Shown: in pieces, positions 41,777 through 61,319 of the stretch | Numbering within the stretch: position 1 is the stretch's first letter | How the letters are laid out: each line of letters begins with the position of its first letter | Assembly (NCBI RefSeq): GCF_025770765.1 | Contig: NZ_JANZKY010000012.1 | Location: 62,001 to 126,000 of the forward strand | Direction of reading: 5' to 3' | DNA from: Propionivibrio soli | Lineage (GTDB): Bacteria > Pseudomonadota > Gammaproteobacteria > Burkholderiales > Rhodocyclaceae | Length of the DNA: 64,000 bases | Notes under the pieces: model-generated | Told to the model about the DNA's origin: nothing | Seen by the model: only the letters and a program-made list of their open reading frames with translations | Database searches by the model: none | Made by a program: the position numbers and the translations under genes

Positions 41777-42298
41777 ATGAAACGCATCCTTTTTGTCTGC
41801 ATGGGGAATATTTGCCGTTCGCCCGCAGCCGAGGGCGTGGCCCGAGCGTTAGTCATGCGCACTGGGTTTGCGTCGTCTATCGAGGTGGCTTCCGCGGGAA
41901 CGCACGCTTACCACGAAGGCGAAACTCCTGACCCGCGAGTCAGGCAAATCGCCTCGGCTAGAGGTTACGACTTAAAAGGCATTCGTGCGCGGCGCATAAC
42001 GGGCAGCGATTTCGAGCGTTTTGATCGGATCCTTGCAATGGACTTGCAGAATCTTGAATTTCTCAAGCGTCGTTGCTTACCCGAGCACGTCGGTAAGATC
42101 GGGCTGTTTTTGGCTCATGATGACGGTTTCGGAGTCACTGAAGTCCCCGATCCCTATTACGGGAACTCCGAAGGTTTCGAAAGAGTATTCGATATGTGTG
42201 AGGTGGCGGCACGTCGCGTCATTTCCGAAACAATCACCTCGTGTCCGAGCACGCAGTCTGACCCGCCTACTCGAGCTTTTTCAGATAATCCTTCGTAA
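41777..42298 (+). CDS. Low-molecular-weight protein-tyrosine-phosphatase
   Basis: A 173-residue phosphatase with the P-loop CMGNICRSP (Cys8-x5-Arg-Ser from MKRILFVC) and the general acid in the C-terminal DPYYG motif. Related enzymes dephosphorylate bacterial tyrosine kinases of the Wzc type; such a kinase is encoded at 54580, so it could be its partner, although the genes are 12 kb apart. It overlaps the convergent LolA-like gene by 32 bases at the 3' ends. Confidence 0.92.
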   Translation: MKRILFVCMGNICRSPAAEGVARALVMRTGFASSIEVASAGTHAYHEGETPDPRVRQIASARGYDLKGIRARRITGSDFERFDRILAMDLQNLEFLKRRCLPEHVGKIGLFLAHDDGFGVTEVPDPYYGNSEGFERVFDMCEVAARRVISETITSCPSTQSDPPTRAFSDNPS

Positions 42299-43061
42299 AC
42301 ACCTTGTCCGGCAGATCACGAAGCTTCATGCTTCTGTACTCGAGGATTGATTGTTCGCCGCTCTTCAGTGCGTCTTCCATAACCAGCCGCGTCGGGCGAG
42401 CGCGTCCCTCCATCATCTGGAAGTTCTCATACTTGCAAGTCTTCAGTAGGCGGTTTGACAGGGAATAAAACTCGGCCTTGAATGGCCAGTTGTCTTTGTG
42501 TCGTACCCAGTACACGACTCGCTGGTACGTGACGCCACGGTCGACGGCGATGAGTTCCAGGACTTGATACGTTTCCCCATCAATGGTCTCTGTGCGGACG
42601 ATGCGCGGGTTATAGTCAGCGGCGAAGTTGGCGCGAGCGAGGTCGCCGTTCGCTACTTGTCCGGTCAGTCGTTGAGATAATGCTATACGGATAGGTTGCG
42701 ATACATCGGGCATGAAGACCCAGAGATCCCGTCCTTTCATCAGAATGATCTGACCTCGCTCGGAGGCAGGTTCCGTCACCATTACGACGGTATTGCTGTT
42801 GCCTTTCGAAAGAACACGATATTTCCGTACCTCGCCAGGCTGTCCCGCCTGCATGTTGGTGATGTTTACATCGACTTGAAATCCCTCGGACGGAAACCTC
42901 ACGAGGTCAGCTTTTTCGACGATGCTCTTGGCTACCGGGTCTTCAGCTTGAACGGCTGGAGAATTCTCTTGTGCGTAGGAATTGAACAGCAAGGTTGTAA
43001 TCACGAAGAGTGCAAACGTTACAACCTTGACACTTTTCCACCGGATAGTCATGATTTCCAT
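42267..43061 (-). CDS. Outer-membrane lipoprotein-sorting (LolA-like) protein
   Basis: A 264-residue exported protein. A signal peptide (VVTFALFVITTLLFNSYAQ) is followed by a LolA-like barrel domain with sequence typical of the 'outer membrane lipoprotein-sorting protein' family (PF17131 type): YRVLSKGNSNTVVMVTEPA, GRDLWVFMPDVSQPIRI, VVYWVRHKDNWPFKAEFY. Such proteins are found next to RND or FtsX-type transporters and are thought to carry lipid or lipoprotein cargo across the periplasm. Divergent from the ABC ATPase over 51 bases. ATG at 43061 is used; 43052 and a GTG at 43070 are alternatives. Confidence 0.85.
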   Translation of the reverse strand: MEIMTIRWKSVKVVTFALFVITTLLFNSYAQENSPAVQAEDPVAKSIVEKADLVRFPSEGFQVDVNITNMQAGQPGEVRKYRVLSKGNSNTVVMVTEPASERGQIILMKGRDLWVFMPDVSQPIRIALSQRLTGQVANGDLARANFAADYNPRIVRTETIDGETYQVLELIAVDRGVTYQRVVYWVRHKDNWPFKAEFYSLSNRLLKTCKYENFQMMEGRARPTRLVMEDALKSGEQSILEYRSMKLRDLPDKVFTKDYLKKLE

Positions 43062-43112
43062 AGTTTTCACCCATTTGTGCTAGCCGCGGGTCGGGGTGGC
43101 AGAGGACATCCA

Positions 43113-43874
43113 ATGAGCGTTGTTCGCATTGAACATGTGTATAAGGATTATCTGCTAGGTGACCAGAAAGTCCAAGCGCTCAAGGACATCACTTTGTCGT
43201 TCGATCCCGGCGTGTTTCTCGCGATCGCCGGTCCATCGGGAAGTGGCAAGACGACGTTGCTCAATCTCATCGGGTGCATCGATACTCCTACCAGCGGAAG
43301 AATCTTCATCAATGACCAGGACGTCTCGGGGCGAACGGCTGACGAGTTAGCCGATTTGCGTAACCGAACCATCGGCTTCATCTTCCAGACCTTCAATTTA
43401 CTCCCTGTACTTTCGGCTGCCGAGAACGTCGAATATCCTCTGCTTCAACGAGCTGACGTTACCAAAGAGGAACGGCAAAGGCGCGTGGAGTATTTCTTGG
43501 ACATTGTTGGCCTCGCCAAGTTTGCCGATCATCGACCTAATCAGTTAAGCGGAGGGCAGCGTCAGCGTGTAGCAATTGCGCGGGCTCTAGCAGTGCTTCC
43601 ATCCATTGTTCTCGCCGACGAACCGACTGCGAATCTTGACCATAAGACAGGCGAGGAAATCCTGAACCTAATGAAGAAAATCAACCGGTCTTTCAATACA
43701 ACGTTTATTTTTTCGACACATGACAAGCGGGTTATTGCGAAAGCCGACCGGTTGGTGAGGGTGGACGATGGAGAAATCTCGGCCCTGGGAGTGCGCTCGG
43801 AAAGCCGCTGGTCGCTTGCGCGGAATCGTCGATCGACCGATGTTGTCGCTCAAAACCAACAAGCCAACAATTAA
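43113..43874 (+). CDS. LolD/MacB-type ABC transporter ATP-binding protein
   Basis: A 253-residue ATPase: Walker A GPSGSGKTT (40-48), Q-loop FIFQTFNLLPVLSAAENV, signature LSGGQRQRVAIARAL, Walker B IVLADEPTANLDHKTGE and H-loop FIFSTHDKRV, all intact. The family drives FtsX-type permeases such as LolCE and MacB. No permease gene follows directly; the matching pair is at 49364-51822 on the same strand, 5.5 kb downstream. ATG at 43113 follows AGAGGACATCC. The DUF1302-type barrel starts 13 bases after its stop. Confidence 0.93.
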   Translation: MSVVRIEHVYKDYLLGDQKVQALKDITLSFDPGVFLAIAGPSGSGKTTLLNLIGCIDTPTSGRIFINDQDVSGRTADELADLRNRTIGFIFQTFNLLPVLSAAENVEYPLLQRADVTKEERQRRVEYFLDIVGLAKFADHRPNQLSGGQRQRVAIARALAVLPSIVLADEPTANLDHKTGEEILNLMKKINRSFNTTFIFSTHDKRVIAKADRLVRVDDGEISALGVRSESRWSLARNRRSTDVVAQNQQANN

Positions 43875-43887
43875 GGGAAAAGAGCTT

Positions 43888-45381
43888 ATGGCGTCACATG
43901 CAGGGAGAGGCAACGCGGGCAACTGTTGGTTGGTTTTCTTCATTCTCATCGCCAGCTGTTTTCCAGTCTTTGCAGCGCAGAATGGAGCGGAGGAGGAGGG
44001 TTCGGAACCGGCTTCGTTGCTACCTGGGGAAGCGCGATCAACTCTGCTGAAGACCAGCCTATTGTTAGCTGCCAAAGCCGAGGAGGACGCTGGTCCGGGG
44101 AGCCTAGGGTCGCTATTTGGCGACGATGAGGAGGTTCAGAAATCGCCGAAACAAGGGCAGGCGTCAGCGGCACAAGGGGGTGGGATAAAGGGATCGATCA
44201 GATTTGAAGCGGCAAGAACGGTCGCCTCGCCCGTGCATTGGTCGAAAATGCTTACACGCGCTGATCTAAGTTCTCAGGGGGATCTGGGTAACGGCGTCAA
44301 ATGGAAATCAGGCATACGCATTGGTTACGACGCTGTTTATGACCTCTATGACTTCTATCCCGGCCGGGTGAGACATGATCAACGCTATGACTTTTCTTTG
44401 CGTGAGAACTATCTAGACGTCAGTTCAGGGGACTGGGATTACCGATTAGGAAAGCAACACGTGGTATGGGGCGAGATGGTTGGTCTCTTCTTCGCCGATG
44501 TCGTATCGGCACGTGAAATGAGGGAATTCATCCTGCCTGAATTCGATACGATGCGAATTCCTCAGTGGGCTGCGCGAGCCGAGTATTTCAAGGATGATTA
44601 CCACGCAGAGTTGCTATGGATCCCCGTAGCCAGTTATGACAACGTTGGCAAACCGGGGGCCGAGTTTTTTCCATACCAGCCTCAGCCTGCCGGCGTGGCA
44701 GTTAGCTATCGCAACGAGGACCGGCCGTCGCGTTCCCTGTCTCATGGCAACTACGGGATACGCCTCTCTACTCTGAAGAACGGGTGGGACGTGTCTGGTT
44801 TTGCTTACAGCAGCATGGACGTTGCGCAGACCTTCTATCGCGATTCAGTTTCCGTTCCGGGAACGTTCATTTACCAGGCACGTCATGATCGCATTCAGCA
44901 GTACGGAGGAACACTCGCGAAGGACTTCGGCGATATTGTCCTCAAGGCGGAAGCGGTTTATACCCATGGACGGCAGTTTACCGTTCTAAGATTGGCAGAT
45001 GATAACGGCCTTGTTCCTCAGAACACGCTTGACTGGGCCGTCGGTTTGGATTTTTCACTTCCAGCCGATACACGGCTTAATGTCCAACTCTATCAACGCG
45101 ATTTCTTTTCTCACGACGCCGATTTACTTTACGAGCCGCGAGAAACCGGTTACAGCCTTCTTCTCAACCATAAATTCACGAATACGTTGGAAGCAGAGGC
45201 TCTATGGATAGCGAGCATCAACCGCACGGATTGGCTGTTCCGTCCTAAGCTGGTATGGAATTTCGAACGAAACTGGCGCCTCTCGGTCGGCGCGGACGTG
45301 TTTAAGGGGCCCGCCCTGGGCTTCTTTGGACGTTACGATGCTAAGGACCGCGTTTATTCTGAAGTGCGGTACAGCTTCTAA
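43888..45381 (+). CDS. DUF1302-type outer-membrane beta-barrel protein
   Basis: A 497-residue exported protein. The signal peptide (WLVFFILIASCFPVFAAQ) lies near residues 13-30. Residues 30-100 form a low-complexity, acidic linker, then a beta-barrel of alternating aromatic strands begins at GSIRFEAARTVASPV. SLRENYLDVSSGDWDYRLGKQHVVWGE and SAREMREFILPEFDTMRIP (abridged) resemble DUF1302 proteins. The C-terminus ends RVYSEVRYSF, a barrel-type terminal phenylalanine. With the LolA-like protein, ATPase and permeases it makes a plausible envelope export system. Function unknown. Confidence 0.8.
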   Translation: MASHAGRGNAGNCWLVFFILIASCFPVFAAQNGAEEEGSEPASLLPGEARSTLLKTSLLLAAKAEEDAGPGSLGSLFGDDEEVQKSPKQGQASAAQGGGIKGSIRFEAARTVASPVHWSKMLTRADLSSQGDLGNGVKWKSGIRIGYDAVYDLYDFYPGRVRHDQRYDFSLRENYLDVSSGDWDYRLGKQHVVWGEMVGLFFADVVSAREMREFILPEFDTMRIPQWAARAEYFKDDYHAELLWIPVASYDNVGKPGAEFFPYQPQPAGVAVSYRNEDRPSRSLSHGNYGIRLSTLKNGWDVSGFAYSSMDVAQTFYRDSVSVPGTFIYQARHDRIQQYGGTLAKDFGDIVLKAEAVYTHGRQFTVLRLADDNGLVPQNTLDWAVGLDFSLPADTRLNVQLYQRDFFSHDADLLYEPRETGYSLLLNHKFTNTLEAEALWIASINRTDWLFRPKLVWNFERNWRLSVGADVFKGPALGFFGRYDAKDRVYSEVRYSF

Positions 45382-45402
45382 CCCAGGCGTTTGCCACAGC
45401 AC

Positions 45403-45418
45403 TGTCGGAAAACTTTAC
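45403..45418 (+). promoter_or_regulatory. Candidate upstream activator element for PEP-CTERM gene
   Basis: TGTCGGAAAACTTTAC lies about 65-80 bases before the sigma-54-type promoter, the range used by enhancer-binding proteins. Read on the other strand it is GTAA-N8-GACA. A related but differently spaced GTAA-N6-GACA occurs upstream of the EPS operon (51913-51926). The assignment rests on position and partial resemblance only. Confidence 0.35.
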
Positions 45419-45480
45419 TTTCTTTTTTTTGACTTTTGGGGGTTTTTCGTAACCTATTGATTTTTAATTTATATTAAAGG

Positions 45481-45496
45481 TGGCATGGGGTGTGCT
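45481..45496 (+). promoter_or_regulatory. Sigma-54 (RpoN) -24/-12 promoter for PEP-CTERM gene
   Basis: TGGCATGGGGTGTGCT matches the TGGCACG-N4-TTGCW consensus at 10 of 12 positions, with the invariant GG (45482-45483) and GC (45494-45495) exactly 12 bases apart. Start would be near 45507, about 55 bases before the ATG at 45562. An AT-rich segment (45421-45480) directly upstream is suitable for DNA bending. Confidence 0.75.
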
Positions 45497-45561
45497 TATG
45501 TAGATCGCGCCAGCTCAAACAGTTGTCTGAGCGAGCCAAGAACCCTCTCGAGGAGATTTAC

Positions 45562-46335
45562 ATGAAGCAATTTGACCTACGCAAGAAAGTCTTGACCGCT
45601 GCTGTCGGCGCTGCGCTGGCGTTCGGAGCTGCCTCCCAAGCTTCCGCTGCTATTGCGCCGGTATTCACTTACGATTTTGATGGTGTGGCTGGCGGCTCAA
45701 CTGTAGTTGCAAACGGACTGTCCGGTGGTAGCGCAGAAATCCTGAATGTCACGAGTCCGACGACTTTCGCCGGTGGCGGTTATGTTCAGATCGACGCACT
45801 GAAATACCTCAGTTCGACCGTGCCGAACACCGGCTACTCGTCGACCGGGCTGTACGCCAAGTTTAATCTGACTAATACACTGGTCAGTGGCGCGTTGGGT
45901 GCGAGCGGCAGCACATACGTTCTAAATTCGTTGAACGTCAGCCTCTATTACGACGCAAACAAGAACAACACGTTTAGCCAAGCCACCGCGAGCGTCGGTA
46001 ATACTGGTGACGATGTCCTGCTGGCTCTCGGCTCCTTGGTTCCTGGAACGGGCACGGCAGGCCTGAGTACCACGTTTGGTGCTTTCCTCAACGCGCTTAC
46101 GCAGTTCTCGTTGACGGCTGACGGAGCGAAGTTCTTTATTTCACCAGTTCCCTTCTATACGCTGGCATTTGAAGGCTTCAACAGCACCGGTAATAGCTGG
46201 ACGTTTAACGGACAGACCTTGACGATCGGCAACGCGACGGGCGTTATCGACTTCCAAAAGGTTCCTGAGCCTGGCTCACTGGCTTTGCTGGGCCTTGGCC
46301 TGGTTGGCTTGGCAGCGAAGCGTCGTCGCAAGTAA
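45562..46335 (+). CDS. PEP-CTERM sorting domain-containing protein
   Basis: A 257-residue exported surface protein. N-terminal signal peptide VLTAAVGAALAFGAASQASA; body rich in G, S, T and N with few charged residues (threonine/serine glycosylation-like composition); C-terminal tripartite sorting signal: VPEPGSLALLGLGLVGLAAKRRRK, i.e. PEP box, hydrophobic helix, basic end (given in two parts: VPEPGS and AAKRRRK). XrtA exosortase would cut after the PEP motif. ATG at 45562 has CGAGGAGATTTAC in front. It has its own sigma-54-type promoter and terminator, so it is a single-gene transcript. Similar in size to PepA-type floc proteins, but identity is not claimed. Confidence 0.92.
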   Translation: MKQFDLRKKVLTAAVGAALAFGAASQASAAIAPVFTYDFDGVAGGSTVVANGLSGGSAEILNVTSPTTFAGGGYVQIDALKYLSSTVPNTGYSSTGLYAKFNLTNTLVSGALGASGSTYVLNSLNVSLYYDANKNNTFSQATASVGNTGDDVLLALGSLVPGTGTAGLSTTFGAFLNALTQFSLTADGAKFFISPVPFYTLAFEGFNSTGNSWTFNGQTLTIGNATGVIDFQKVPEPGSLALLGLGLVGLAAKRRRK

Positions 46336-46360
46336 GCCTGTTAAAGACCTTCACTTAAGG

Positions 46361-46395
46361 ACCTCCATCCCGAACGGGGTGGAGGTTTTTGTTTT
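46361..46395 (+). terminator. Rho-independent terminator of PEP-CTERM gene
   Basis: ACCTCCATCCC-GAAC-GGGGTGGAGGT is an 11-bp stem (one T-G wobble) with a GAAC tetraloop, followed by TTTTTGTTTT. It is the clearest intrinsic terminator in the window and separates the PEP-CTERM gene from the methyltransferase. Confidence 0.9.
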
Positions 46396-46406
46396 ATAGT
46401 AAGCGC

Positions 46407-47282
46407 ATGCCAAGACTATCTTTGCTTCCTGTCATGGTTCGGGAGATGTTTGGCGAGCGGAAGTTTCCGCGCGAGCCAGAACCTGATCTCGTGATGGACG
46501 ATCCTGAGCAGGTGGCCGCGTATTCTTACGCTGGCCGTATCGACGGGGTTATGTCCGCGGCTTACCTCTATCACTCTGCTCAGATCAGTCAGACGATACA
46601 CGGATGCGCAAAGGTTCTTGACTTGGGCTGCGGCCCTGCAACTCAGCTCGGGCAGGTTGCTCAACTTAATCCTGACATTTCATTTCTTGGCGTCGATTTG
46701 TCGGCAACGATGCTCGATAGCGCGAGAAAGCATGCTGCTGCGCTATCCCTGCCTAATGTCGGTTTTCAGGTTGAAGACATTACCCAGCTCGAAGGGATTA
46801 GCGATCAGAGTGTTGACGCAGTGATTTCCACAATGGCGGTGCATCACCTTCCCACCAGAGATTTACTCGATAAGTGTTTCCAACAGATAGCCCGAGTTCT
46901 GAAACCGGGGGGGGCGGTTTACCTAACGGATTTTGGGCGGCTCAAATCTCTCAAGTCGGTGTTGTTTTTTGCCTATATGAACGCCGAGCACCAGCCACAT
47001 CTTTTTTCGCTTGATTACGAGCGTTCCTTGCGTGCTGCTTTTCTGCTCGACGATTTCGAGGATTGTGCGGGGAAGTTTTTGCCCTCATCTGTTAAGGTGC
47101 AGAGCACGTTCAGAGTGCCTTTCCTGGTGATGCTCAAAACGCCATCGAGGGCACTGCCGCCGGCGCTCGTTGAGCGATTGAGAGAGTTGAGAAGGACGTT
47201 GCCGCAGAAGTATCGGTCCGATCTTGATGAATTGCGATTTTTCTGCAAACTTGGCGGGGTCGATCCCGATCCGTTTGGGTGA
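46407..47282 (+). CDS. Class I SAM-dependent methyltransferase
   Basis: A 291-residue methyltransferase. Motif I is VLDLGCGPATQLGQVA (about residue 75), motif II FLGVDLSATML, motif III-like DAVISTMAVHHLP, motif IV RVLKPGGAVYLTDFGRLKS. The fold is that of UbiE/small-molecule methyltransferases. The N-terminal ~60 residues and the C-terminal tail are less typical. ATG at 46407 is chosen; a TTG at 46389 lies inside the terminator tract. The neighbouring nitroreductase-like gene starts 49 bases after its stop on the same strand. Substrate unknown. Confidence 0.85.
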   Translation: MPRLSLLPVMVREMFGERKFPREPEPDLVMDDPEQVAAYSYAGRIDGVMSAAYLYHSAQISQTIHGCAKVLDLGCGPATQLGQVAQLNPDISFLGVDLSATMLDSARKHAAALSLPNVGFQVEDITQLEGISDQSVDAVISTMAVHHLPTRDLLDKCFQQIARVLKPGGAVYLTDFGRLKSLKSVLFFAYMNAEHQPHLFSLDYERSLRAAFLLDDFEDCAGKFLPSSVKVQSTFRVPFLVMLKTPSRALPPALVERLRELRRTLPQKYRSDLDELRFFCKLGGVDPDPFG

Positions 47283-47331
47283 CGTTCATCCTGCCTTATC
47301 TCGACCTGCCGTCCTAGAAAGACCGCGTCAA

Positions 47332-48384
47332 ATGCCATCCGAGACTGCGCGTTTCCTTGCTACAACCGCTCGCGCGGCTCCTTCTGCAGATAATTCCCAG
47401 CCCCTTCGGTTCGAGTGGGACGGAGTGCGATTCACCGTTCTGTTTGACAATGTTCGCTGTGCAGCCAAACTGTTCGGGGCGGAATCTCACCCCACGCTAC
47501 TGACGGTGGGCGCGTGCTTTGAGAACTTGGACTCGGCGGTCAAAGCTATGGGTTCTGGGGGACGGTGGGAGTACTCCCAGGTCGGGTCGGGTTCCGTCGC
47601 CTACGGGAATTTGGTGATTGAGTCGCCGCCCTCGCAACCCTTACCACTGCACTTGCCGCTTTTTCAAAGGCACACGAACCGTTTTCCATACCGAGCCTCG
47701 CCTGTTCCGGAAGCGATCGTTTCGAGAGTCGGCGAGTTTCGTCGTGGGCAAGCACGTATCGTTTTTCTGCGTGACGCAGAGAGAAAGAAAATGCTGGTTA
47801 GCACCGTGCGAGAGGCGGCCGAAGTGCGCTTCCGTACGCGTGAGTTGCATGAATGGCTGATGGACAGCCTTCGTTTTACCTCTGCAGAAGCTGAGCAAGG
47901 CGATGGCCTCGATATTGAGACCGTGGATTTGCCTCCAGGAGGAAAGGCCTTCCTGCGCTTAACTCGCCCGTGGCATCGCATGGCTTGGCTCAATCAACTC
48001 GGCGTGTACAAAGGCTTGGCATTAGCTGAGACAAGATTGCTGAAGAGCTCTCCGGTACTTGCCTGCATCGTTGGCAAGACCGACTGGGATGGCGTCGTTG
48101 AAGCAGGGCGCTTACTCTGTGCGACATGGAGCAGCCTTAATACAGAAGGCCTGGCTGTACACCCGTACTATGTCGTCACGGACCAGTTGTCCCGCCTAAA
48201 AGCGAACAAGGTTCATCCGTCCATGGACAATGCCGTTCGCCGGATCGATCAAACGGTCCGTCAATTGCTGGAACTTGGCTCGGACGAGCAATTGCACATG
48301 ATTCTGCGGGTGGGGTACCCGAGTAAGGCGCCGGTTCGCTCTCGACGGTTACCGTTGGATTTGGTTTATCAAGACCTGAGCTAG
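47332..48384 (+). CDS. Nitroreductase-family protein (Acg/Rv3131-like)
   Basis: A 350-residue flavin-fold protein. The N-terminal ETARFLATTARAAPSADNSQPLRFEWDG (abridged) is the nitroreductase start: xxARxAPSxxNxQPWRF. Other family stretches include LLTVGACFENLDSAVKAMG, HRMAWLNQLGVYKGLA and GRLLCATWSSLNTEGLAVHPYYV. The layout matches the Acg-like nitroreductases, in which the flavin-binding residues are often altered, so FMN binding is not certain. ATG at 47332 is the only usable start. It converges on the ThiF gene; in mycobacteria (Rv1355c) a ThiF and a nitroreductase domain are fused, which suggests a working pair. Confidence 0.75.
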   Translation: MPSETARFLATTARAAPSADNSQPLRFEWDGVRFTVLFDNVRCAAKLFGAESHPTLLTVGACFENLDSAVKAMGSGGRWEYSQVGSGSVAYGNLVIESPPSQPLPLHLPLFQRHTNRFPYRASPVPEAIVSRVGEFRRGQARIVFLRDAERKKMLVSTVREAAEVRFRTRELHEWLMDSLRFTSAEAEQGDGLDIETVDLPPGGKAFLRLTRPWHRMAWLNQLGVYKGLALAETRLLKSSPVLACIVGKTDWDGVVEAGRLLCATWSSLNTEGLAVHPYYVVTDQLSRLKANKVHPSMDNAVRRIDQTVRQLLELGSDEQLHMILRVGYPSKAPVRSRRLPLDLVYQDLS

Positions 48385-48426
48385 CTGACTTCCTTGGCAC
48401 CCCAGATGGTGGCTCGGTACGTTTCT

Positions 48427-49293
48427 TTAGCTGCTCTTAGGCGCGAGTTGCCTTTTGACGAGCGTGATCATGAGACGTTGTAGCGGGTTGCGGTGACCCC
48501 AGGGCCGCCAGGTGGTCGTGTATCGCATCCGATACCCGTCAAATTGGCTCGCCCGCGGTGCGACGAGGACGCCTCCTCGACCGAGGATGAGCTTAAGCGT
48601 TTCGATAGCGGCCACCCCGGCACAAAGCTGACAAGCCGCTATGCTCGACGGACCACGACGCTCCGCCAAGTTGACCCGTGACATGTCCGCTACATATCCA
48701 CGCTGCAGCATTGCGGGCGAGAGACCAACAAGAAAACGGACGGCCATCTCCTGTTCGTCGCATCCTTCAAATCCGAAATACTCTTCGAACGGCATGCCGC
48801 CTGGCGCGAAAACGAGCAACGCCGTTCCCATTCCGAGCGGTGCCGCTGTTACAACCGGGATTCCCTTTTTCTCGCATGCGGCGAACGTAAGGCGTCGCGC
48901 GTCGAACGCAAAAAAATCAAGCCCGTCGACATACACATCCACGCCTTCGAGAAATGCGTCAATCGAATCGGCTTTTATGCCTCCCGGAAAAGTGAGCAGC
49001 TCCATCTCGGGATTGATATCCCTGGCCATTTCGGCAAGGACGTCGAGTTTGGGGCGGCCCAACGTGGGGACTGTTGCCCCGACTTGCCGGTTGAAATTGG
49101 CGATGTCAAAAACGTCGAAGTCGGCGATCGAGAATCGCCCGATTCCAAGCCGGGCGAGGGTCAACAAGTGAACCCCTCCGACGCCGCCTAATCCACCGAC
49201 GGCAACCTTGGCCCGTCGCAGTTTTTCCTGTTCGGTTTCGGTCACCCAACCGATATTGCGCGAAAAAGCCTTGTCGTAATCGAAGGTTTGCAT
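48427..49293 (-). CDS. ThiF/E1-like adenylyltransferase family protein
   Basis: A 288-residue Rossmann protein of the ThiF/MoeB/E1 superfamily. VAVGGLGGVGGVHLLTLARLG is the ATP-binding glycine loop, DFDVFDIANFNRQVGA the conserved D-x-N-x-N-R-Q region, and VDGLDFFAFDARR the switch segment. The CxxC zinc pairs of MoeB are absent and no clear crossover cysteine like that of E1 enzymes is visible. It is therefore not a standard MoeB or ThiF. Start ATG at 49293; divergent from the permeases and convergent with the nitroreductase-like gene (42 bases apart). Confidence 0.85.
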   Translation of the reverse strand: MQTFDYDKAFSRNIGWVTETEQEKLRRAKVAVGGLGGVGGVHLLTLARLGIGRFSIADFDVFDIANFNRQVGATVPTLGRPKLDVLAEMARDINPEMELLTFPGGIKADSIDAFLEGVDVYVDGLDFFAFDARRLTFAACEKKGIPVVTAAPLGMGTALLVFAPGGMPFEEYFGFEGCDEQEMAVRFLVGLSPAMLQRGYVADMSRVNLAERRGPSSIAACQLCAGVAAIETLKLILGRGGVLVAPRASQFDGYRMRYTTTWRPWGHRNPLQRLMITLVKRQLAPKSS

Positions 49294-49313
49294 GGAATTC
49301 GCTCGATATTGGT

Positions 49314-49327
49314 TTATCGTATGATAA
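49314..49327. promoter_or_regulatory. Inverted repeat in ThiF/permease divergent spacer
   Basis: TTATC-GTAT-GATAA, a 5-base inverted repeat, sits in the 70-base spacer between the divergent ThiF and permease genes. It has the form of an operator half-site pair, but it is short and could be chance. Confidence 0.3.
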
Positions 49328-49363
49328 CAACCCTGGCCTCCGCCTCAACAGAGCGCGCAACCG

Positions 49364-50593
49364 ATGAACAGTGTAGCTGCAGAGTTCCGCCTGGCGGCAC
49401 GTAACCTCCGGCGTAACACCCGAAGAACGCTGGTGGCCACGCTAACTGTAGCGTTCGGCATCGTGGCCTTTCTGCTCGCGGGAGGGTTCATCGCGTGGGT
49501 CTTCGAGCAAATGCGGGAAGCGACAATCCACTCGCAACTCGGCCATTTCCAAATTGTACGCCCAGGGTTCTTCGAGAAGGGGATCGCCGACCCTTACGCT
49601 TACCTGCTTCCCGACCAGTCGGTTGAGCAACAAAAGGTGGAGCGCTTGGAGAGTTTCAAGGGCCTCGCACCGCGGCTTACCTTCAGTGGCCTCGTAAGCC
49701 GCGGAGAGACGACGATCGCATTCATCGGCGATGGGATTGATCCAGTCAGAGAGAAACCCATCAGCAGTAGCGTAACGGTAGTTAGCGGTCATGATCTGAA
49801 GGATGCGAACGAGCGGGCCGTCCTCCTCGGCGAAGGACTGGCGGCCGCTATGGGAGTGAAGGTTGGGGATATGGTCGTTCTGCTTGCGACAGCGGCTAAC
49901 GGAAGCCCGAGCGCCGTGGAGGTGGTCGTCGCCGGGACGTTTGCAACGAGCGCCAAGGAATATGACGATAGTGCGCTCCGGCTGCCGATCGGTGTTGCGA
50001 GACGGCTCATGAAAGTCCAAGGCGCTACATCGTGGGTCGTTCTGTTGGACGATACCAAGAAAACCGATACTGCCATTGCGACGATTTCTGACCAGCTGCC
50101 AGCCAAGGAGTTCGAGATCGTGCCTTGGCACGCGCTGGCCGATTTCTACAACAAGACAGTTGTCCTGTTTTCCAAGCAGGTCAGCGTCGTCAAGTTCATT
50201 ATTGGCGTCATCATTGTGCTCACCATTTCGAATACCCTGATGATGAGCGTTCTTGAACGCACGACCGAAATTGGAACCAGTCTCGCGATAGGGCAGAGGC
50301 GAGCGACGATTCTGCGCATGTTCGTGGCCGAAGGAACGCTCATCGGTATCGTCGGTGGCCTCCTCGGAGTGCTGCTCGGCTATGCGTTCGCGTCTGCCAT
50401 ATCCGCCGTGGGAATACCCATGCCCCCGCCACCTGGGATGGCACGCGGCTTTATGGGGGAGATCCTGGTCGTCCCTGGCCTCGCTGTTGATGGATTTGTT
50501 CTGGCGCTGATTACTACGTTCGCCGCCAGCTTGCTGCCGGCGTGGAAGGCGAGCCGCATGAATATCGTCGATGCATTACGGTACAACCAATGA
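49364..50593 (+). CDS. FtsX-like ABC transporter permease (first of a pair)
   Basis: A 409-residue inner-membrane permease in the MacB/LolC fold: N-terminal helix (TLTVAFGIVAFLLAGGFIAWV), a large periplasmic domain (about residues 45-270), then three C-terminal helices (FIIGVIIVLTISNTLMMSVLERTTEIG, then GTLIGIVGGLLGVLLGYAFA, then the last near residue 370). The FtsX signature LERTTEIGTSLAIGQRRATI is intact. The loop IPMPPPPGMARGF is shared with the next protein. It would pair with the LolD-type ATPase at 43113. ATGA overlap with the second permease. Confidence 0.92.
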   Translation: MNSVAAEFRLAARNLRRNTRRTLVATLTVAFGIVAFLLAGGFIAWVFEQMREATIHSQLGHFQIVRPGFFEKGIADPYAYLLPDQSVEQQKVERLESFKGLAPRLTFSGLVSRGETTIAFIGDGIDPVREKPISSSVTVVSGHDLKDANERAVLLGEGLAAAMGVKVGDMVVLLATAANGSPSAVEVVVAGTFATSAKEYDDSALRLPIGVARRLMKVQGATSWVVLLDDTKKTDTAIATISDQLPAKEFEIVPWHALADFYNKTVVLFSKQVSVVKFIIGVIIVLTISNTLMMSVLERTTEIGTSLAIGQRRATILRMFVAEGTLIGIVGGLLGVLLGYAFASAISAVGIPMPPPPGMARGFMGEILVVPGLAVDGFVLALITTFAASLLPAWKASRMNIVDALRYNQ

Positions 50594-51822
50594 GTATCGT
50601 TTCCGTGCAACGAGCCGCCTTCGCTCTTCGCAACGTGTTCCGACAACGTGTCCGGTCTGCTGCGACCTTGGCCGCGATCGGTCTTGGCGTGGCCGGGCTC
50701 ATCCTCGCCGGTGGCTTTGTTCAAGACATTTTTTTTCAACTTGGAGAGGCGGTCATCCATTCTCAGAGTGGCCATATTCAGATTTCGCGCCTCGGTTATC
50801 GAGAAGGGCGGGTTCGATCCCCAGAGGCTTTTTTGATTGATCAGCCGGATCAACTGAAACGGTCGCTATTAACGGAACACGGCGTGCACCAAGTGCTCGA
50901 GCGCTTGAGCTTCACAGGAGTAATTAATAACGGAAAGCGGGATCTTGGGATCATTGGGGAAGGAGTTGAGCCGGACGCCGAAGCCGAACTCGGGACCTAT
51001 CTTCGCTACGTCGAAGGGCGAGCGTTGAAGAACAGCGATGCAGACGGGATTGTGCTCGGGCAAGGTGTTGCAAAGTCGCTTGGCCTAAAAGCTGGGGACC
51101 GTGCAAACCTTGTCATCAGCCTGCCGGAAGGGGCGGTCAATACGCTGGACTTTGAAGTTGTTGGAGTATTCCAGAGTTTCTCCAAGGACTTCGATGCGCG
51201 TGCTGTGCGGATACCGCTTGCCGCAGCACGGACGCTGATGGACAACGCTTCCGCGCATGTTTTGGTTGTCGTTCTCGACAAGACGGAGGATACCGATCTG
51301 GTTCTCGACAGGCTGCGAGCTCGATTGAGCGGGAACGAATATGAGCTGGTTTCTTGGCGGAGCCTCTCGGATTTCTATGAGAAGACGCTCAAACTCTACG
51401 ATCGCCAGTTTGGCGTGTTGCGCCTCATCATCCTGTTGATGGTTCTTCTCAGCGTAGCGAACAGCGTAAACATGACACTCTTCGAGCGCACTCGTGAGTT
51501 CGGTACCATGCTCGCGATTGGCGATCGTCCCGGGACGGTGTTTCAACTTGTCGTTACTGAAAACGCGCTGATAGGCCTTATCGGAGCGGGGTTTGGAATA
51601 GCGGTTGGTTGCGCCGCCGCCTTGGCGATTTCTGCAATCGGCATCCCGATGCCGCCGCCCCCCAACTCAAACCTCAACTATACGGCGTTTATTCGCCTCG
51701 TCCCGCTTGATGTTCTTGTGGCTGGGACTGTTGGTTTTGCTGCTGCGCTACTTGCGGCCCTGATGCCGGCATGGCGCGTGTCGCGCATGAAGGTCGTAGA
51801 TGCTCTTCGTCATGGCGTTTAA
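50590..51822 (+). CDS. FtsX-like ABC transporter permease (second of a pair)
   Basis: A 410-residue paralogue of the preceding permease, with the same order: helix 1 (AAIGLGVAGLILAGGFVQDIFF), periplasmic domain, FERTREFGTMLAIGDRPGTV, two helices with IPMPPPPNSNLNY between them, and the C-terminal SRMKVVDALRHGV (the first ends SRMNIVDALRYNQ). The pair therefore arose by tandem duplication and probably forms a heterodimer like LolC/LolE. ATG at 50590 overlaps the preceding stop. No ATPase follows. Confidence 0.92.
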   Translation: MSIVSVQRAAFALRNVFRQRVRSAATLAAIGLGVAGLILAGGFVQDIFFQLGEAVIHSQSGHIQISRLGYREGRVRSPEAFLIDQPDQLKRSLLTEHGVHQVLERLSFTGVINNGKRDLGIIGEGVEPDAEAELGTYLRYVEGRALKNSDADGIVLGQGVAKSLGLKAGDRANLVISLPEGAVNTLDFEVVGVFQSFSKDFDARAVRIPLAAARTLMDNASAHVLVVVLDKTEDTDLVLDRLRARLSGNEYELVSWRSLSDFYEKTLKLYDRQFGVLRLIILLMVLLSVANSVNMTLFERTREFGTMLAIGDRPGTVFQLVVTENALIGLIGAGFGIAVGCAAALAISAIGIPMPPPPNSNLNYTAFIRLVPLDVLVAGTVGFAAALLAALMPAWRVSRMKVVDALRHGV

Positions 51823-52288
51823 ATTTACGTATGCCTGTACAGAACCGGGGTGAGGTATCCCTTCCTCGTTTGCGATGGTGTCCAAGAATCCGTACGGCAG
51901 CGTGTTTTTTTCGTAACTTTTTGACAATAAGCTTGTCGGATAGCGGCTTTCGAGAAGCGACTGCGCCACATCTTCATGTGGATATCCGGCTAAGTGTGCA
52001 TTAGTTGTTTCGTTTGGTGGTCGGGCGGGTGTACTGTTACGGAATCGGTGTGCCATGCCCGAGCTTCCGTTGTGCGATTCGAAAGCTTAGGGGCCACATA
52101 CACGGAGCGATTGTGGAACCTCTTTTGCTACTTGGTGAAAAGGACGACGGGGCGTGGCGATGCTTAACTCGGGACGTGTTATTCTTCCCGGTTATGATGA
52201 ACAGCTTGAGGTAGGTGCTCGCGGCTTTTGTTTTCATACGCTTCATTGTTCGCGTTCTTATGACCGCTATCGATTAGAGGAGAATGAT
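51823..52288 (+). promoter_or_regulatory. EPS operon upstream regulatory region
   Basis: A 466-base non-coding region ahead of the EPS operon. Seen in it: TTTTTCGTAAC (51907-51917), which also occurs upstream of the PEP-CTERM gene (45443-45453); an inverted repeat GACAA-TAAGC-TTGTC at 51923-51937; and a sigma-54-type promoter at 52114. No convincing gene or terminator of the permease operon is visible. Confidence 0.5.
52114..52129 (+). promoter_or_regulatory. Sigma-54-type -24/-12 promoter candidate for EPS operon
   Basis: TGGAACCTCTTTTGCT has GG (52115-52116) and GC (52127-52128) 12 bases apart and a full TTGCT -12 box; the -24 box has A in place of the usual C. Start would be near 52140, about 150 bases before the ATG at 52289. 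It fits control of the operon by an RpoN-dependent activator such as PrsR of XrtA systems. Confidence 0.6.
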
Positions 52289-52918
52289 ATGTTTGTCGGC
52301 CTGCATAACGGTGTCGTTGCGGCGCTTCGCTGGTTTCTGATTGGTGCGCTGGGGATTGCCGTCTTCGGTTGCGCAACGGGTCATCCTCCCGCACCTTCCG
52401 CTGCGGCATCTTCGGACTACAACTACATCATCGGTCCAGGCGACACCGTGAATATCGTCGTATGGCGGAACCCCGAGTTGTCCATGTCCGTGCCGGTGCG
52501 CCCCGATGGAAAGATCACCGCACCGTTGGTTGAGGACTTACCAGCAATGGGGAAGGATGCCACAACCTTGGCACGCGATATTGAAGCGGCTATCGGCAAG
52601 TTCATTCGCGACCCGGTGGTTACCGTTATTGTCACGGCATTTGTCGGACCCTATGCCGAGCAGATCAGAGTCGTCGGTGAGGCGGCAAAGCCGCAAACCC
52701 TTCCGTATAAGCAGAAAATGACGCTGCTCGACGTAATGATCGCGGTCGGCGGCATCACTGATTTCGCGGACGGTAACGGTACGACTCTTCTGCGTACTTC
52801 CGAGGGCAACAAGCAGTACAGCCTGCGCGTGAAGGACCTGATCAAGCGGGGGGACGTGTCGGCAAACGTCGAAATGAAACCTGGTGATGTTCTCATCATC
52901 CCGCGCAGCTGGTTCTGA
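52289..52918 (+). CDS. XrtA-system polysaccharide export lipoprotein
   Basis: A 209-residue Wza-type export protein. The signal peptide ends at lipobox AVFGC (IAVFGCATGHPPAP), so it is outer-membrane anchored. IIGPGDTVNIVVWRNPELSMSV is the Poly_export domain start, GEAAKPQTLPYKQKMTLLDVMIAVGG and MKPGDVLIIPRSWF the SLBB-like end. It is the short PEP-CTERM/XrtA form of the family. ATG at 52289 follows TAGAGGAGAATGAT, a strong ribosome binding site. First gene of the EPS operon. Confidence 0.93.
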   Translation: MFVGLHNGVVAALRWFLIGALGIAVFGCATGHPPAPSAAASSDYNYIIGPGDTVNIVVWRNPELSMSVPVRPDGKITAPLVEDLPAMGKDATTLARDIEAAIGKFIRDPVVTVIVTAFVGPYAEQIRVVGEAAKPQTLPYKQKMTLLDVMIAVGGITDFADGNGTTLLRTSEGNKQYSLRVKDLIKRGDVSANVEMKPGDVLIIPRSWF

Positions 52919-53003
52919 TTTTCGGCCGCTATAGTTTCCTCTGTTAACCTGGGGCTGGCTACCCGGCTCCAGGCGTTCCTAACACTACTGAACATAGAGA
53001 TCG

Positions 53004-54569
53004 ATGGACGAGATCATCCGACAGGCGACGACCATTCTGCGGGGCATGTGGAAGCACCGCTGGCTCGGCATCGTAGTGGCGTGGCTCGTTGCCGCGATAG
53101 GTGTGGTCACGGTTCTGCGCATTCCAGACAAATACGAAGCGTCGACGCGTATCTACGTCGACACGCAATCCATTCTCAAGCCCTTGATGTCCGGGCTTGC
53201 GATTGAGCCGAACCTCGATCAGCAGATCATGATTTTGAGCCGCACCCTGATCAGTCGCCCGAACATTGAGAAGCTCATTCGGATGGCGGATCTGGATCTC
53301 AATATCAAATCGAAGCAGGGACAGGATGCACTCATTGATTCCTTGATGAAGACGCTCACGATCAAGAGCACATCGAGGGATAACCTCTATACGCTCTCGT
53401 ATAACGACCAAGATCCCGAACGTGCCAAACGGGTTGTCCAATCGCTTGCCTCGATTTTTGTTGAATCAAGCCTGGGCGATAAGCGGAAGGACACGGATTC
53501 CGCCAAGAAATTTATCGACGATCAGATCATCGTTTATCAGAAGAAACTTGAAGAAGCCGAGAACCGGCTGAAGGAATTCAAGCTGAGAAATATCTCCATG
53601 CAGACGTCGGACGGCAAAGACTACTTTGGCCGGATTGGAGAAGTCAGTGCGGCGCTTGAACGCTCGAAGCTTGAATTGCGTGAGGCAGAGAATGCCAGGG
53701 ATTCACTCAAACGCCAGATAGTTGGCGAAGAACCGGTGTTGCTGCCTGATAATCCGAACGCTAATGCGAACGCTGCCGTGTCTCTGCCGGAAATCGACGG
53801 GCGTATCGACGCGATGAAGCGCAATCTCGATGGTTTGTTGCAACGGTATACCGAGCAACACCCTGACGTTGTCGGCACCCGCCGCATGATCCACGAACTG
53901 GAAGAGCAGAAGCGCCAGGAAATTGCATCGAGAAAGAAAATCGACCCGGCTAGTCCTGCGTCGTTGCTGAACAACAATCCGGTTTACCAGCAGCTCAAGT
54001 TGGCGTTGGCGGAAAATGAGGCAACGGTCGCCTCGTTGCGCGTGAGAGTGGCGGAGTATCAAGCACGTTACAACCAGTTGAAAGACGCGATGAAGCTTGT
54101 TCCGCAACTTGAAGCGGAGTACAGCCAACTGAATCGCGACTATGACATCAACAAAAGGAATTACGAAAGTCTGGTTTCCCGGCGCGAATCGGCGACCTTG
54201 TCGGGAGAGATGGAGGCGAGCGCCGGCGGTGTGGACTTCCGGTTGATCGACCCTCCGCGTGTTTCTCCGCGCCCAGTTTCTCCAAATCGTCTACTGCTTG
54301 TGCCGCTTACACTGGTTTTGGCTTTGGCAGCCGGGTTCTTTGTCGCTTTTGCTGCAAGCCAGATAAGGCCCGTGTTCTTCGACGCCAGGGCGCTACGGGA
54401 ATTGACGGGGTTGCCGTTACTGGGCTCCGTATCTCGGCGAGCCGACGACGCAGCGAGAACAAAGGAAAAGAGGGACTTCAGGCGTTTTATTGCCGCCTCC
54501 GCATCGTTAGTCTGCGCCTATGGTGCCGGTATCGCGGTGTTGTTCCTTATTTCGATCCGGACTGCTTGA
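53004..54569 (+). CDS. XrtA-system polysaccharide chain length determinant
   Basis: A 521-residue Wzz-type inner-membrane protein: helix near residues 19-38 (WLGIVVAWLVAAIGVVTVL), long periplasmic coiled-coil part (residues about 160-400; LEEAENRLKEFKLRN, MKRNLDGLLQRYTEQHPDV), a second helix (LLLVPLTLVLALAAGFFVAF) and another near the C-terminus. The PPR-rich segment DPPRVSPRPVSPNR precedes the second helix, as in Wzz. It controls chain length with the tyrosine kinase encoded next. 11 bases separate them. Confidence 0.93.
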   Translation: MDEIIRQATTILRGMWKHRWLGIVVAWLVAAIGVVTVLRIPDKYEASTRIYVDTQSILKPLMSGLAIEPNLDQQIMILSRTLISRPNIEKLIRMADLDLNIKSKQGQDALIDSLMKTLTIKSTSRDNLYTLSYNDQDPERAKRVVQSLASIFVESSLGDKRKDTDSAKKFIDDQIIVYQKKLEEAENRLKEFKLRNISMQTSDGKDYFGRIGEVSAALERSKLELREAENARDSLKRQIVGEEPVLLPDNPNANANAAVSLPEIDGRIDAMKRNLDGLLQRYTEQHPDVVGTRRMIHELEEQKRQEIASRKKIDPASPASLLNNNPVYQQLKLALAENEATVASLRVRVAEYQARYNQLKDAMKLVPQLEAEYSQLNRDYDINKRNYESLVSRRESATLSGEMEASAGGVDFRLIDPPRVSPRPVSPNRLLLVPLTLVLALAAGFFVAFAASQIRPVFFDARALRELTGLPLLGSVSRRADDAARTKEKRDFRRFIAASASLVCAYGAGIAVLFLISIRTA

Positions 54570-54579
54570 GGAAGAACGA

Positions 54580-55515
54580 ATGAGCCTGATTGAACAAGCG
54601 GCGCAACGGCTGGAGCAATTGCGTCAGGCTGGCGTAGATATCCCGTCGAGCCCGGAAGAGAAAGTGCCTGAGAAGACGGAACGACGGGCGCCTTCTACCG
54701 GACGGGTCGAAGCACGGGAAAACACAGTGGATTTGCCTCGCGAGACGTCGAGTCCTGCGAATGACGTGCCCGTGTCACGGCGGGTTGACTTGGATATGGA
54801 TTCGCTTTCGAGAGCAGGCATCATTCGCCCAGATGCGCCGCGGTCCCGTCTTTCTGACGAGTACCGCGTCGTGAAGCGCCCGTTGATCGACAATGCCATG
54901 GGCAAGGGAGCGGCGAAGGTCAAGGACGGTAACCTGATCATGATCACCAGCGCTTTGCCTGGTGAGGGCAAGACGTTCACGGCAGCTAACCTTGCGGTTA
55001 GCATCGCCATGGAGCTCGACAACACGGTTATGCTGGTGGACGCGGATGTGGCACGACCGACGTTGCTCAAAGTTCTCGGCGTGCCGCCAACCCGAGGATT
55101 ACTCGACGTTCTTGTGGACGATACCGTCGATTTGGCGCAAGTCCTGCTGCGTACGAATATCGAGAAACTCACCGTACTGCCGAGCGGAACCCCGCATCCC
55201 AGGGCCACTGAACTGTTGGCGAGCGATGCCATGGTTCACCTTCTTGAGGAGATGGCCAGCCGCTATTCAGACCGTATCATTATTTTCGATTCGCCGCCGT
55301 TATTGGTGACGACGGAGGCGCGAGCGTTGGCGTCCCATATGGGGCAAGTCGTCGTTGTTGTTAAAGCTGAAAACACCCACGTGGCTGATGTTAAGCACGC
55401 CTTGGCCGCAGTTGAAGCCTGTCCCGTTAAACTGATGTTGCTCAATCAGGCAAAACCAACAAAGCTGGATGGCTATGGTTACGGATATGGATACGGTTAC
55501 GGGTATGGCAACTGA
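54580..55515 (+). CDS. XrtA-associated tyrosine autokinase (BY-kinase)
   Basis: A 311-residue cytoplasmic bacterial tyrosine kinase. Walker A is SALPGEGKTF (124-133), Walker A' VMLVDADVARP (150-160), and Walker B lies in RIIIFDSPPLLV. The C-terminus is six alternating Gly-Tyr units (positions 55471-55512), the tyrosine cluster that BY-kinases autophosphorylate. It works with the Wzz-type protein before it to control polymerisation and export. ATG at 54580 follows GAGGAAGAACGA. The stop overlaps the next gene. Confidence 0.94.
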   Translation: MSLIEQAAQRLEQLRQAGVDIPSSPEEKVPEKTERRAPSTGRVEARENTVDLPRETSSPANDVPVSRRVDLDMDSLSRAGIIRPDAPRSRLSDEYRVVKRPLIDNAMGKGAAKVKDGNLIMITSALPGEGKTFTAANLAVSIAMELDNTVMLVDADVARPTLLKVLGVPPTRGLLDVLVDDTVDLAQVLLRTNIEKLTVLPSGTPHPRATELLASDAMVHLLEEMASRYSDRIIIFDSPPLLVTTEARALASHMGQVVVVVKAENTHVADVKHALAAVEACPVKLMLLNQAKPTKLDGYGYGYGYGYGYGN

Positions 55516-57049: not shown

Positions 57050-57058
57050 CCCCCAGCC

Positions 57059-59334: not shown

Positions 59335-59355
59335 AACAGCATAACTAAGGCCGCG

Positions 59356-60219
59356 ATGACCAAGAACACGATCACTAATGCGCTGACCATCGACGTCGAG
59401 GATTACTTTCAGGTCTCTGCGCTGGCTCCCTATATCCCTCGCGAGGAGTGGGATTCGAGAGCATGCCGCGTAGAGCGCAATGTTGAACGCATTCTGAACT
59501 TGCTCGATAAGCACAGTGTGAAGGCGACATTTTTCACGCTTGGTTGGATTGCGGAGCGCTACCCGTGTTTGATCCGCGCAATCGTTGACGGCGGGCATGA
59601 ATTGGCAAGCCACGGCTACGGGCACCAACGGGCCAGCGACCTCAGTGAAGAGCTGTTTTTCGCCGATATCGAGTCGGCGAAACGGTTGCTCGAGGATTTG
59701 TCCGGACACGAGGTTAAGGGGTACCGAGCCCCTAGTTTTTCTATCGGCAAGCGTAATCTTTGGGCGTTTGATTGTCTCGAGCGGGCGGGGTATCGATACA
59801 GCTCGAGCATCTATCCGATTCGGCATGATCACTACGGCATGCCCGATGCGCCGCGCTTCGCGCATAGCGTTCGTGTTGGTCTGCTTGAAGTTCCGGTCAC
59901 GACGGCGCGCTTCTTCGAACGCAACTGGCCGGCGAGCGGTGGCGGGTACTTCCGCCTCATGCCTTACGCGGTATCGCGTTGGCTGTTGCGTCGCGTCAAC
60001 GATATCGATTGCCAGGCCGCCGTATTTTACTTCCATCCCTGGGAGATCGACTTCGAACAACCGCGCATCAAAGGCATCGATGCCAAGACGCGCTTCCGGC
60101 ATTACCTCAACCTGCATCGGACGGAGCAGCGCCTCGAACGCCTGTTGGCGGATTTTTCGTGGGGGCGCATGGACGAAATCTTCCTGGAACAGGCCACAGC
60201 TTCCAGGGACCGCTTCTGA
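59356..60219 (+). CDS. XrtA-system polysaccharide deacetylase
   Basis: A 287-residue NodB-type deacetylase. ALTIDVEDYFQVSALAPYI is the first motif (metal aspartates, D-x-E-D form typical of this locus type); GHELASHGYGHQRASD holds the histidine pair; GYRAPSFSIGK is motif 3; FYFHPWEIDFEQPRIKG closes the domain. It would remove N-acetyl groups from the polymer. ATG at 59356, 21 bases after wecB, with an AAGGCCG upstream sequence. Confidence 0.93.
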   Translation: MTKNTITNALTIDVEDYFQVSALAPYIPREEWDSRACRVERNVERILNLLDKHSVKATFFTLGWIAERYPCLIRAIVDGGHELASHGYGHQRASDLSEELFFADIESAKRLLEDLSGHEVKGYRAPSFSIGKRNLWAFDCLERAGYRYSSSIYPIRHDHYGMPDAPRFAHSVRVGLLEVPVTTARFFERNWPASGGGYFRLMPYAVSRWLLRRVNDIDCQAAVFYFHPWEIDFEQPRIKGIDAKTRFRHYLNLHRTEQRLERLLADFSWGRMDEIFLEQATASRDRF

Positions 60220-60232
60220 TCGGAGGCGCGCA

Positions 60233-61315: not shown

Positions 61316-61319
61316 GCGC

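Follow-up and report, generated by a model that had tools for sequence, protein, structure and literature searches.

We analyzed a 64,000-nucleotide stretch of Propionivibrio soli DNA (the window; C4:62001-126000, where C4 is contig NZ_JANZKY010000012.1 of a 4.76-Mb assembly) and focused on a locus in which the two halves of a putative ATP-binding cassette (ABC) exporter flank a PEP-CTERM protein gene and three enzyme genes. A first-pass annotation had placed a half encoding a LolA-like protein, an ATPase, and an outer-membrane barrel at 42.3-45.4 kb and a pair of FtsX permeases at 49.4-51.8 kb, with the PEP-CTERM gene and the three enzyme genes between them. Open reading frame (ORF) calls and matches to family models confirmed this separation, as well as all of the gene identities and positions that had been named. 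The genes at the locus were as follows (positions in the window).

41777..42298, plus strand: low-molecular-weight protein tyrosine phosphatase (PF01451, 128.8 bits)
42267..43070, minus strand: LolA-like periplasmic carrier (PF17131, 174.4 bits; solved relative 3BUU (NE2245), E 2e-96)
43113..43874 (ATG start), plus strand: ABC ATPase, LolD/MacB type (ABC_tran, 115.8 bits)
~43888..45381 (start codon uncertain), plus strand: DUF1302 outer-membrane barrel (PF06980, 31.8 bits, cut-off 23.2)
45562..46335, plus strand: PepA, flocculation-associated PEP-CTERM protein (NF033554, 167.3 bits, cut-off 80; PF07589, 32.4 bits, cut-off 20.7)
46407..47282 (start TTG 46389 or ATG 46407), plus strand: S-adenosylmethionine-dependent class-I methyltransferase (PF13847, 81.3 bits)
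47332..48384, plus strand: nitroreductase-superfamily flavoprotein, Rv1355c/Acg type, proposed desaturase (NF005901, 120.3 bits)
48427..49293, minus strand: ThiF/E1-like adenylyltransferase, proposed cyclase (PF00899, 149.1 bits; PRK08223, 473.3 bits, cut-off 266)
49364..50593, plus strand: FtsX1 permease, LolC/E-like, MacB_PCD (PF02687, 64.9 bits; PF12704, 49.2 bits; LolC structure 7arh, E 6.8e-18)
50590..51822, plus strand: FtsX2 permease, MacB_PCD (PF12704, 64.2 bits; PF02687, 62.1 bits)
52154..63766, plus strand: XrtA/PEP-CTERM exopolysaccharide genes (TIGR03027, 03007, 03018, 03016, 03015, 00236, 03006, 03019, 03087, and 03088, all over cut-off)

The FtsX2 ATG overlapped the FtsX1 stop codon. 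The methyltransferase, nitroreductase, and ThiF genes did not form one co-directional operon, as ThiF was divergent from FtsX1 at a distance of about 70 bp. The split exporter and the middle block lay at the beginning of an XrtA exopolysaccharide locus; nine XrtA/PEP-CTERM-named models scored over cut-off downstream, and the gene set there encoded an export protein, a chain-length determinant, a tyrosine kinase, an outer membrane protein, an ATPase, WecB, a deacetylase, a FemAB-like protein, and two glycosyltransferases.

We think that the middle block probably provides the tailoring part of a pathway to an N-acyl amino acid lipid, one of the acyl-oxazolone or N-acyl dehydro-amino-acid type, and that the flanking genes encode the trans-envelope exporter of this lipid. 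In the proposed pathway, ThiF would adenylate the carboxylate of an N-acyl amino acid and close an oxazolone ring, the nitroreductase-type flavoprotein would desaturate the alpha-beta bond with O2, and the methyltransferase would methylate the product. The exporter would then move the lipid across the envelope, and in the matrix or floc the lipid would act together with PepA and the polysaccharide of the XrtA system. We based this proposal on the gene identities, the ThiF adenylation residues, the co-location of the genes across families, a protein in which FeeM, ThiF, and nitroreductase are fused, and loci at which an MMPL pump takes the place of the permeases. The first-pass annotation had suggested, as one of two possibilities, a combined surface-modification system and had given no named system with this content. 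Lipid tailoring now replaces surface modification, and named pathways with these enzymes do exist, namely, the Tyz/Oxz/Trz pathways and those for stieleriacines.

According to the available text of PMC10404671 and PMC12856293, the known acyl-oxazolone pathways include TyzABC and TrzAS of Mycobacterium and OxzAB of Pseudoalteromonas rubra. TyzA is the enzyme that acylates tyrosine; desaturation with O2 is carried out by TyzC, of the nitroreductase superfamily, and ATP-dependent cyclization by TyzB (ThiF). TrzS is a fusion of the TyzB- and TyzC-type steps, and cyclization comes first there (PMC10404671, PMC12856293). The window carried a predicted ThiF-type cyclase, as judged by the PRK08223 model score and an intact adenylation site, and, adjacent to it, a putative flavin oxidase of the nitroreductase superfamily. 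Unlike Tyz, Trz, and Oxz as described there, the window had a methyltransferase and lacked an adjoining N-acyl amino acid synthase, the remaining element expected in the same cluster of a Tyz/Oxz/Trz-type pathway. In the accessible portion of PMC12479983, N-acyl dehydrotyrosine producers share N-acyl amino acid synthase, ThiF, and nitroreductase genes, and the available part of an earlier paper (PMC7293339) put forward the proposal that an enzyme of the ThiF superfamily makes a cyclic intermediate. The window resembled these dehydrotyrosine and stieleriacine clusters, which are described as combining the synthase, a ThiF-superfamily protein, and a nitroreductase or oxidoreductase. Stieleria also has a methyltransferase, and a PEP-CTERM gene and putative transporters were noted in the S. 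maiorica cluster. As far as the accessible accounts go, the stieleriacine and dehydrotyrosine pathways were inferred from genomes and synthase deletions, and no exporter was assigned.

The window ThiF kept the GxGGxGG motif, R69, K82, and D126, each present in ≥95% of 75 ThiF sequences; the residue of Escherichia coli ThiF that aligned with D126 was also an aspartate. No cysteine was conserved at 95% among the 75 sequences. Because the adenylation residues were kept and no cysteine was conserved, a small-molecule carboxylate fits as the substrate better than a thioester route. ThiF also matched part of the Rv1355c model at 68 bits, which is under its cut-off. A role in molybdopterin or thiamine biosynthesis was judged unlikely, as MoeB/ThiF models scored about 62-91 bits, under their cut-offs; the search did not extend to genes for small sulphur carriers.

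In the case of the nitroreductase, the match was to the C-terminal, flavin-oxidase half of NF005901 (Rv1355c), with 120 bits against a whole-model cut-off of 476. The protein had no Pfam match at E 0.001, and a search of the PDB with the single sequence returned nothing significant; a family profile (A1) matched the Acg structure 2YMV with E 7e-20. The window protein belonged to a minority subtype that was present at 8 of the 57 ThiF loci with a nitroreductase. This subtype occurred with a seeded methyltransferase at 5/8 loci, compared to 4/49 for the other subtypes (p 0.001), which suggests that the product is methylated. Relatives of the window methyltransferase were found at ThiF loci L163, L207, L203, L117, and L179 (L denotes a locus and G a genome).

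A set of 399 genomes of the order, including the window's own, was searched for ThiF and FtsX1. ThiF was found in 65 genomes and FtsX1 in 42. Both were present in 27 genomes from 11 families, and the two genes were on the same contig in all 27, with gaps of 71 to 12,634 bp (Fisher p 5e-14, kinship ignored). Near-neighbor pairs of ThiF and FtsX1 were divergent in 17 of 17 cases. In a nearer set of 59 genomes, again including the window's own, 12 had both genes and 10 of these had them close together.

The other gene types were counted around ThiF. The 75 ThiF loci comprised 65 order-wide loci (the window included) and 10 from nearer relatives, which are not independent; one (L128, ThiF-minus in the FtsX1 tree described below) was dropped by a 0.3-overlap rule, leaving 74. 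Genes of the relatives were labeled from our own ORF calls, by phmmer/hmmsearch with seeds and, in the case of PEP-CTERM tails, by a regular expression, in stretches of ≤20 kb that were centered on ThiF and moved towards FtsX where both were known, and rows at contig ends may miss neighbors. Within 10 kb of ThiF, a nitroreductase was present at 56 loci, a PEP-CTERM gene at 58, a FeeM-type synthase at 48, FtsX at 33 (a count that is not independent of the centering, whereas the 27/27 linkage is), and a seeded methyltransferase of one of two kinds at 10. Each of these gene types was found in 0 of 20 control 20-kb regions, which were hand-picked on large contigs in 20 of the ThiF-carrying genomes. 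The 27/27 linkage and the empty controls lend strong support to a combined system, and they contradict the idea, raised in the first-pass annotation, that the middle genes are randomly distributed. A random insertion of unrelated genes was rejected on the same grounds.

Runs of FeeM, ThiF, nitroreductase, and PEP-CTERM genes recurred among the ThiF loci. Twelve of the ThiF proteins were long (650-816 amino acids), and 11 of the 12 carried a nitroreductase label by profile, indicating that they are ThiF-nitroreductase fusions. On a Nitratidesulfovibrio plasmid, FeeM, ThiF, and nitroreductase were fused in one 989-amino-acid protein, based on Pfam, and the fusion gene was followed by two PEP-CTERM genes within an XrtA locus. 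L163, which comes from the same family as the window but a different genus, had the gene content of the window with the PepA-methyltransferase-nitroreductase segment inverted; its methyltransferase, nitroreductase, and PEP-CTERM protein matched those of the window with 480, 301, and 216 bits, respectively. L207 had FeeM, ThiF, nitroreductase, PEP-CTERM, and methyltransferase genes and a compact exporter in one run, and its methyltransferase was homologous to that of the window (404 bits).

Among solved structures, FtsX1 was nearest to LolC/LolE by sequence. The exporter resembled the LolCDE-LolA lipoprotein sorting system in having two FtsX-type permeases, a LolD-like ATPase, and a LolA-fold carrier. 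It differed in that its components scored under the LolC/E and LolD cut-offs and were accompanied by a DUF1302 barrel. Membership in LolCDE was rejected, as the permeases scored 116 and 95 bits against a TIGR02212 cut-off of 362 and the ATPase scored 220 against a TIGR02211 cut-off of 308. The top NCBIfam models for the ATPase were LolD (220 bits) and DevA (217 bits), each under cut-off. Other FtsX-type permeases, 27-28% identical, were encoded elsewhere in the same genome. A search of genome contigs with FtsX1 returned three loci, two of which were contig fragments of 'Accumulibacter' metagenome-assembled genomes, the close named matches.

At 8 of the 74 ThiF loci, an MMPL pump was present, never in the same stretch as FtsX, and at six of the eight it came with its own DUF1302 and LolA-like genes (Pfam-checked for L208 only). 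Neither FtsX nor an MMPL pump was seen at 32 of the 74 loci. That the same enzymes are accompanied by another type of pump, with partners much like those of the permeases, points to transport of what these enzymes are predicted to make. In the available text of PMC10404671, mmpL9 adjoins the tyz genes and is called intriguing, and the MMPL genes at the ThiF loci are reminiscent of that arrangement. The AmeABCD hydrophobe exporter, as described in the accessible part of PMC6394551, shares with the window a DUF1302 outer-membrane protein, a LolA-superfamily periplasmic protein, and an energized inner-membrane pump. AmeABCD has an RND/HAE3 pump and an extra periplasmic protein and is tied to monoterpene tolerance (PMC6394551), whereas the window has ABC permeases. 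Its composition is similar to that of the MMPL variant seen at some of the ThiF loci.

Several observations weighed against a lipid pathway with its own exporter. There was no FeeM match in the window, and thus the locus would work like, yet cannot be called, a complete acyl-oxazolone cluster. The only strong FeeM matches of the genome were at C5:133416 and C4:191085, the latter about 65 kb beyond the end of the window, and no pathway gene was seen near the C5 match by eye over 7 kb. The window nitroreductase was 18-24% identical to the other aligned types, and the L207 nitroreductase was of another subtype (22% identity to that of the window). Of the 65 genomes with ThiF, 38 lacked these permeases, and of the 42 with the permeases, 15 lacked ThiF; in 2 of the 12 nearer genomes with both (G012 and G033), the two were on different contigs. 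Within 10 kb of ThiF, FeeM was missing at 26, a PEP-CTERM gene at 16, and a nitroreductase at 18 of the 74 loci, some of which were cut by contig ends. In addition, the accessible text of PMC10404671 places C12:0-tyrazolone in Mycobacterium cell pellets and not in supernatants, and co-location of an exporter with enzymes does not prove its cargo.

We also considered a generic role for the exporter, as a pump for acyl lipids or lipoproteins, with the middle block as one of several interchangeable cassettes that share the locus through common regulation or hitch-hiking and not through a substrate. This seems unlikely, although some observations favor it. An acyl ligase and a thioester reductase were present at 9 of 26 exporter loci without ThiF (L112, L122, L124, L135, L222, L224, L226, L229, and L230) and at 0 of 35 with ThiF (p 2e-4; some loci share a genome), and the arrangement of the exporter changed at least eight times on a tree of 55 FtsX1 proteins. 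However, 16 of the 26 loci without ThiF were near FeeM, a TIGR03694-type acyltransferase, an acyl ligase, or a thioester reductase. Thus, cargo cassettes appear to be exchanged, but the alternatives are also of the acyl-lipid type. The occurrence of ThiF and FtsX1 as divergent neighbors in several families suggests a shared task as well. The acyl ligase and thioester reductase pair beside the same exporter is possibly another lipid pathway; a WbuX-type amidotransferase accompanied the pair at 7 of the 9 loci.

The FtsX1 tree also bears on whether a recent chance insertion of the PepA-methyltransferase-nitroreductase-ThiF block split an exporter operon in the lineage of the window, which we consider the least probable of the explanations. 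The tree was built by a quick method and is unrooted, so it does not give the order of compact and split states, and 20 of its 52 inner branches were open. An exporter was called compact if the permease gene and the ATPase or barrel gene closest to each other had nothing between them except LolA or ORFs of <140 amino acids. By this definition, 21 tips were compact, 17 were split, and 17 could not be classified. The 16-row clade of the window had no compact, 6 split, and 10 unknown rows, and outside it there were 21 compact, 11 split, and 7 unknown rows. It follows that the arrangement is labile and that the split form is usual in this lineage. The first-pass suggestion of an insertion into an ancestral operon holds to the extent that the halves were adjacent at 21 of the 38 loci that could be classified, all 21 lying outside the clade of the window. 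Gap contents also differed between same-genus relatives. It fails in that the gap was not filled at random. In relatives, the gap held mostly biosynthetic and PEP-CTERM genes, contents that are related in kind; in 11 families, ThiF adjoined the permeases or was close to them, and the family matches of the window's gap genes included no mobile-element family.

Another explanation is that ThiF, the nitroreductase, and the methyltransferase modify a PEP-CTERM protein in the manner of ribosomally synthesized and post-translationally modified peptides (RiPPs) and that the exporter handles the modified protein. In some RiPP systems, peptides are modified by an E1-like protein paired with a nitroreductase-like one, and the frequency of PEP-CTERM genes near ThiF would fit. 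We nonetheless regard this as very unlikely, because the fusion of ThiF and nitroreductase to FeeM and the closest characterized relatives point to N-acyl amino acids, and because most PEP-CTERM proteins at ThiF loci were only weakly similar to the window PepA (216 bits for L163; ≤67 bits for the others listed).

Some individual loci differed from the window in other ways. In L115 (5646-10452, G009), the gap contained an ISAzo13 transposase, two GlcD-like oxidase genes, and PEP-CTERM genes but no ThiF. G022 (L125, L124) had two permease pairs, one near the LolA-ATPase-barrel genes and one beside the XrtA operon, where a 492-amino-acid ORF lay between two FtsX1 pieces. The possibility, raised in the first-pass annotation, that the ATPase of relatives lies next to other permeases was borne out in G022, where a second pair of permeases, also of this family, lay close to the ATPase. 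The tyrosine phosphatase gene adjoined the LolA-ATPase-barrel half in several same-genus relatives too. In L144 (1420-4137, G018), a long-form FeeM-type synthase of 441 amino acids lay directly 3' of FtsX2, and it may be a PilZ fusion by analogy with PMC4897644. On a Bdellovibrio plasmid (L237, 4789-8852), an ABC ATPase, an FtsX permease, and a 388-amino-acid protein without a Pfam hit were followed by ThiF; two transposase-family proteins were upstream, and no PEP-CTERM gene was annotated in the stretch.

Two features flanked pepA.

45481..45496, plus strand: weak sigma-54-like -24/-12 box 5' of pepA (one mismatch to consensus; ends about 65 bp before the pepA ATG)
46356..46391, plus strand: terminator-like hairpin 3' of pepA (stem of 16 pairs, the longest in the scan, plus a T run)

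Based on the weak box before it and the long hairpin after it, pepA may be its own transcription unit. Boxes of that grade occurred five times in the window compared to 3.5 expected by chance, and terminator-like sites in the region numbered 13 compared to 13.5 in shuffles, which is no excess. The window box failed the stricter sigma-54 pattern that was applied to relatives. Boxes of the stricter pattern preceded 29 of 68 PEP-CTERM genes at ThiF loci and 41 of 1015 other ORFs, a background that takes in unlabeled ORFs. In the available text of PMC9850573, PepA of Aquincola tertiaricarbonis is a PEP-CTERM protein that is tied to floc formation and depends on sigma-54 (RpoN), and the enrichment at ThiF loci agrees with this dependence. 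The window PepA resembled the Aquincola protein in that it fit the NCBIfam flocculation-associated PepA model, a likeness at the level of the family model. As described in that text, Aquincola pepA sits upstream of prsT, unlike the window arrangement.

Acyl-oxazolone chemistry and a link between the synthase and PEP-CTERM genes are already published. N-acyl amino acid synthase genes were reportedly placed beside PEP-CTERM/exosortase systems by Craig in 2011, as relayed by citing papers. A link between ThiF/nitroreductase lipid genes and a LolA/FtsX/DUF1302 exporter was not found in the literature searched, which did not cover that 2011 work. The available portions of PMC10404671 and PMC12856293 reported no PEP-CTERM gene, FtsX/LolA/DUF1302 exporter, or XrtA locus for Tyz, Trz, or Oxz. 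The words PEP-CTERM, exosortase, and transporter each had 0 occurrences in the accessible text of PMC12856293, as did PEP-CTERM, exosortase, and ABC transporter in that of PMC12479983.

What oxazolones do physiologically is described in the accessible text of PMC12856293 as a major unresolved question, and according to that of PMC10404671 it has yet to be determined what becomes of them in the cell. With a complete exporter and matrix proteins encoded in linkage with the enzymes, one answer can be tested directly, namely, export to the surface for the building of matrix or floc. A bolder idea, to which we give little probability, is that the exporter (the FtsX pair or MMPL, with the LolA-like carrier and the DUF1302 barrel) brings acyl-oxazolones to the surface, where the reactive ring would acylate amines of PEP-CTERM proteins or of deacetylated XrtA polysaccharide, making the lipid a covalent building block of the matrix of flocs or biofilms. 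To our knowledge, the substrates of LolA-like/DUF1302 exporters are mostly unknown, and the linkage suggests a cargo class for them. Related bacteria often have such lipid genes next to the same pump and a surface-matrix protein, which suggests a lipid that would be synthesized, exported, and put to use in the matrix of biofilms or flocs. The linkage also bears on floc-forming wastewater bacteria.

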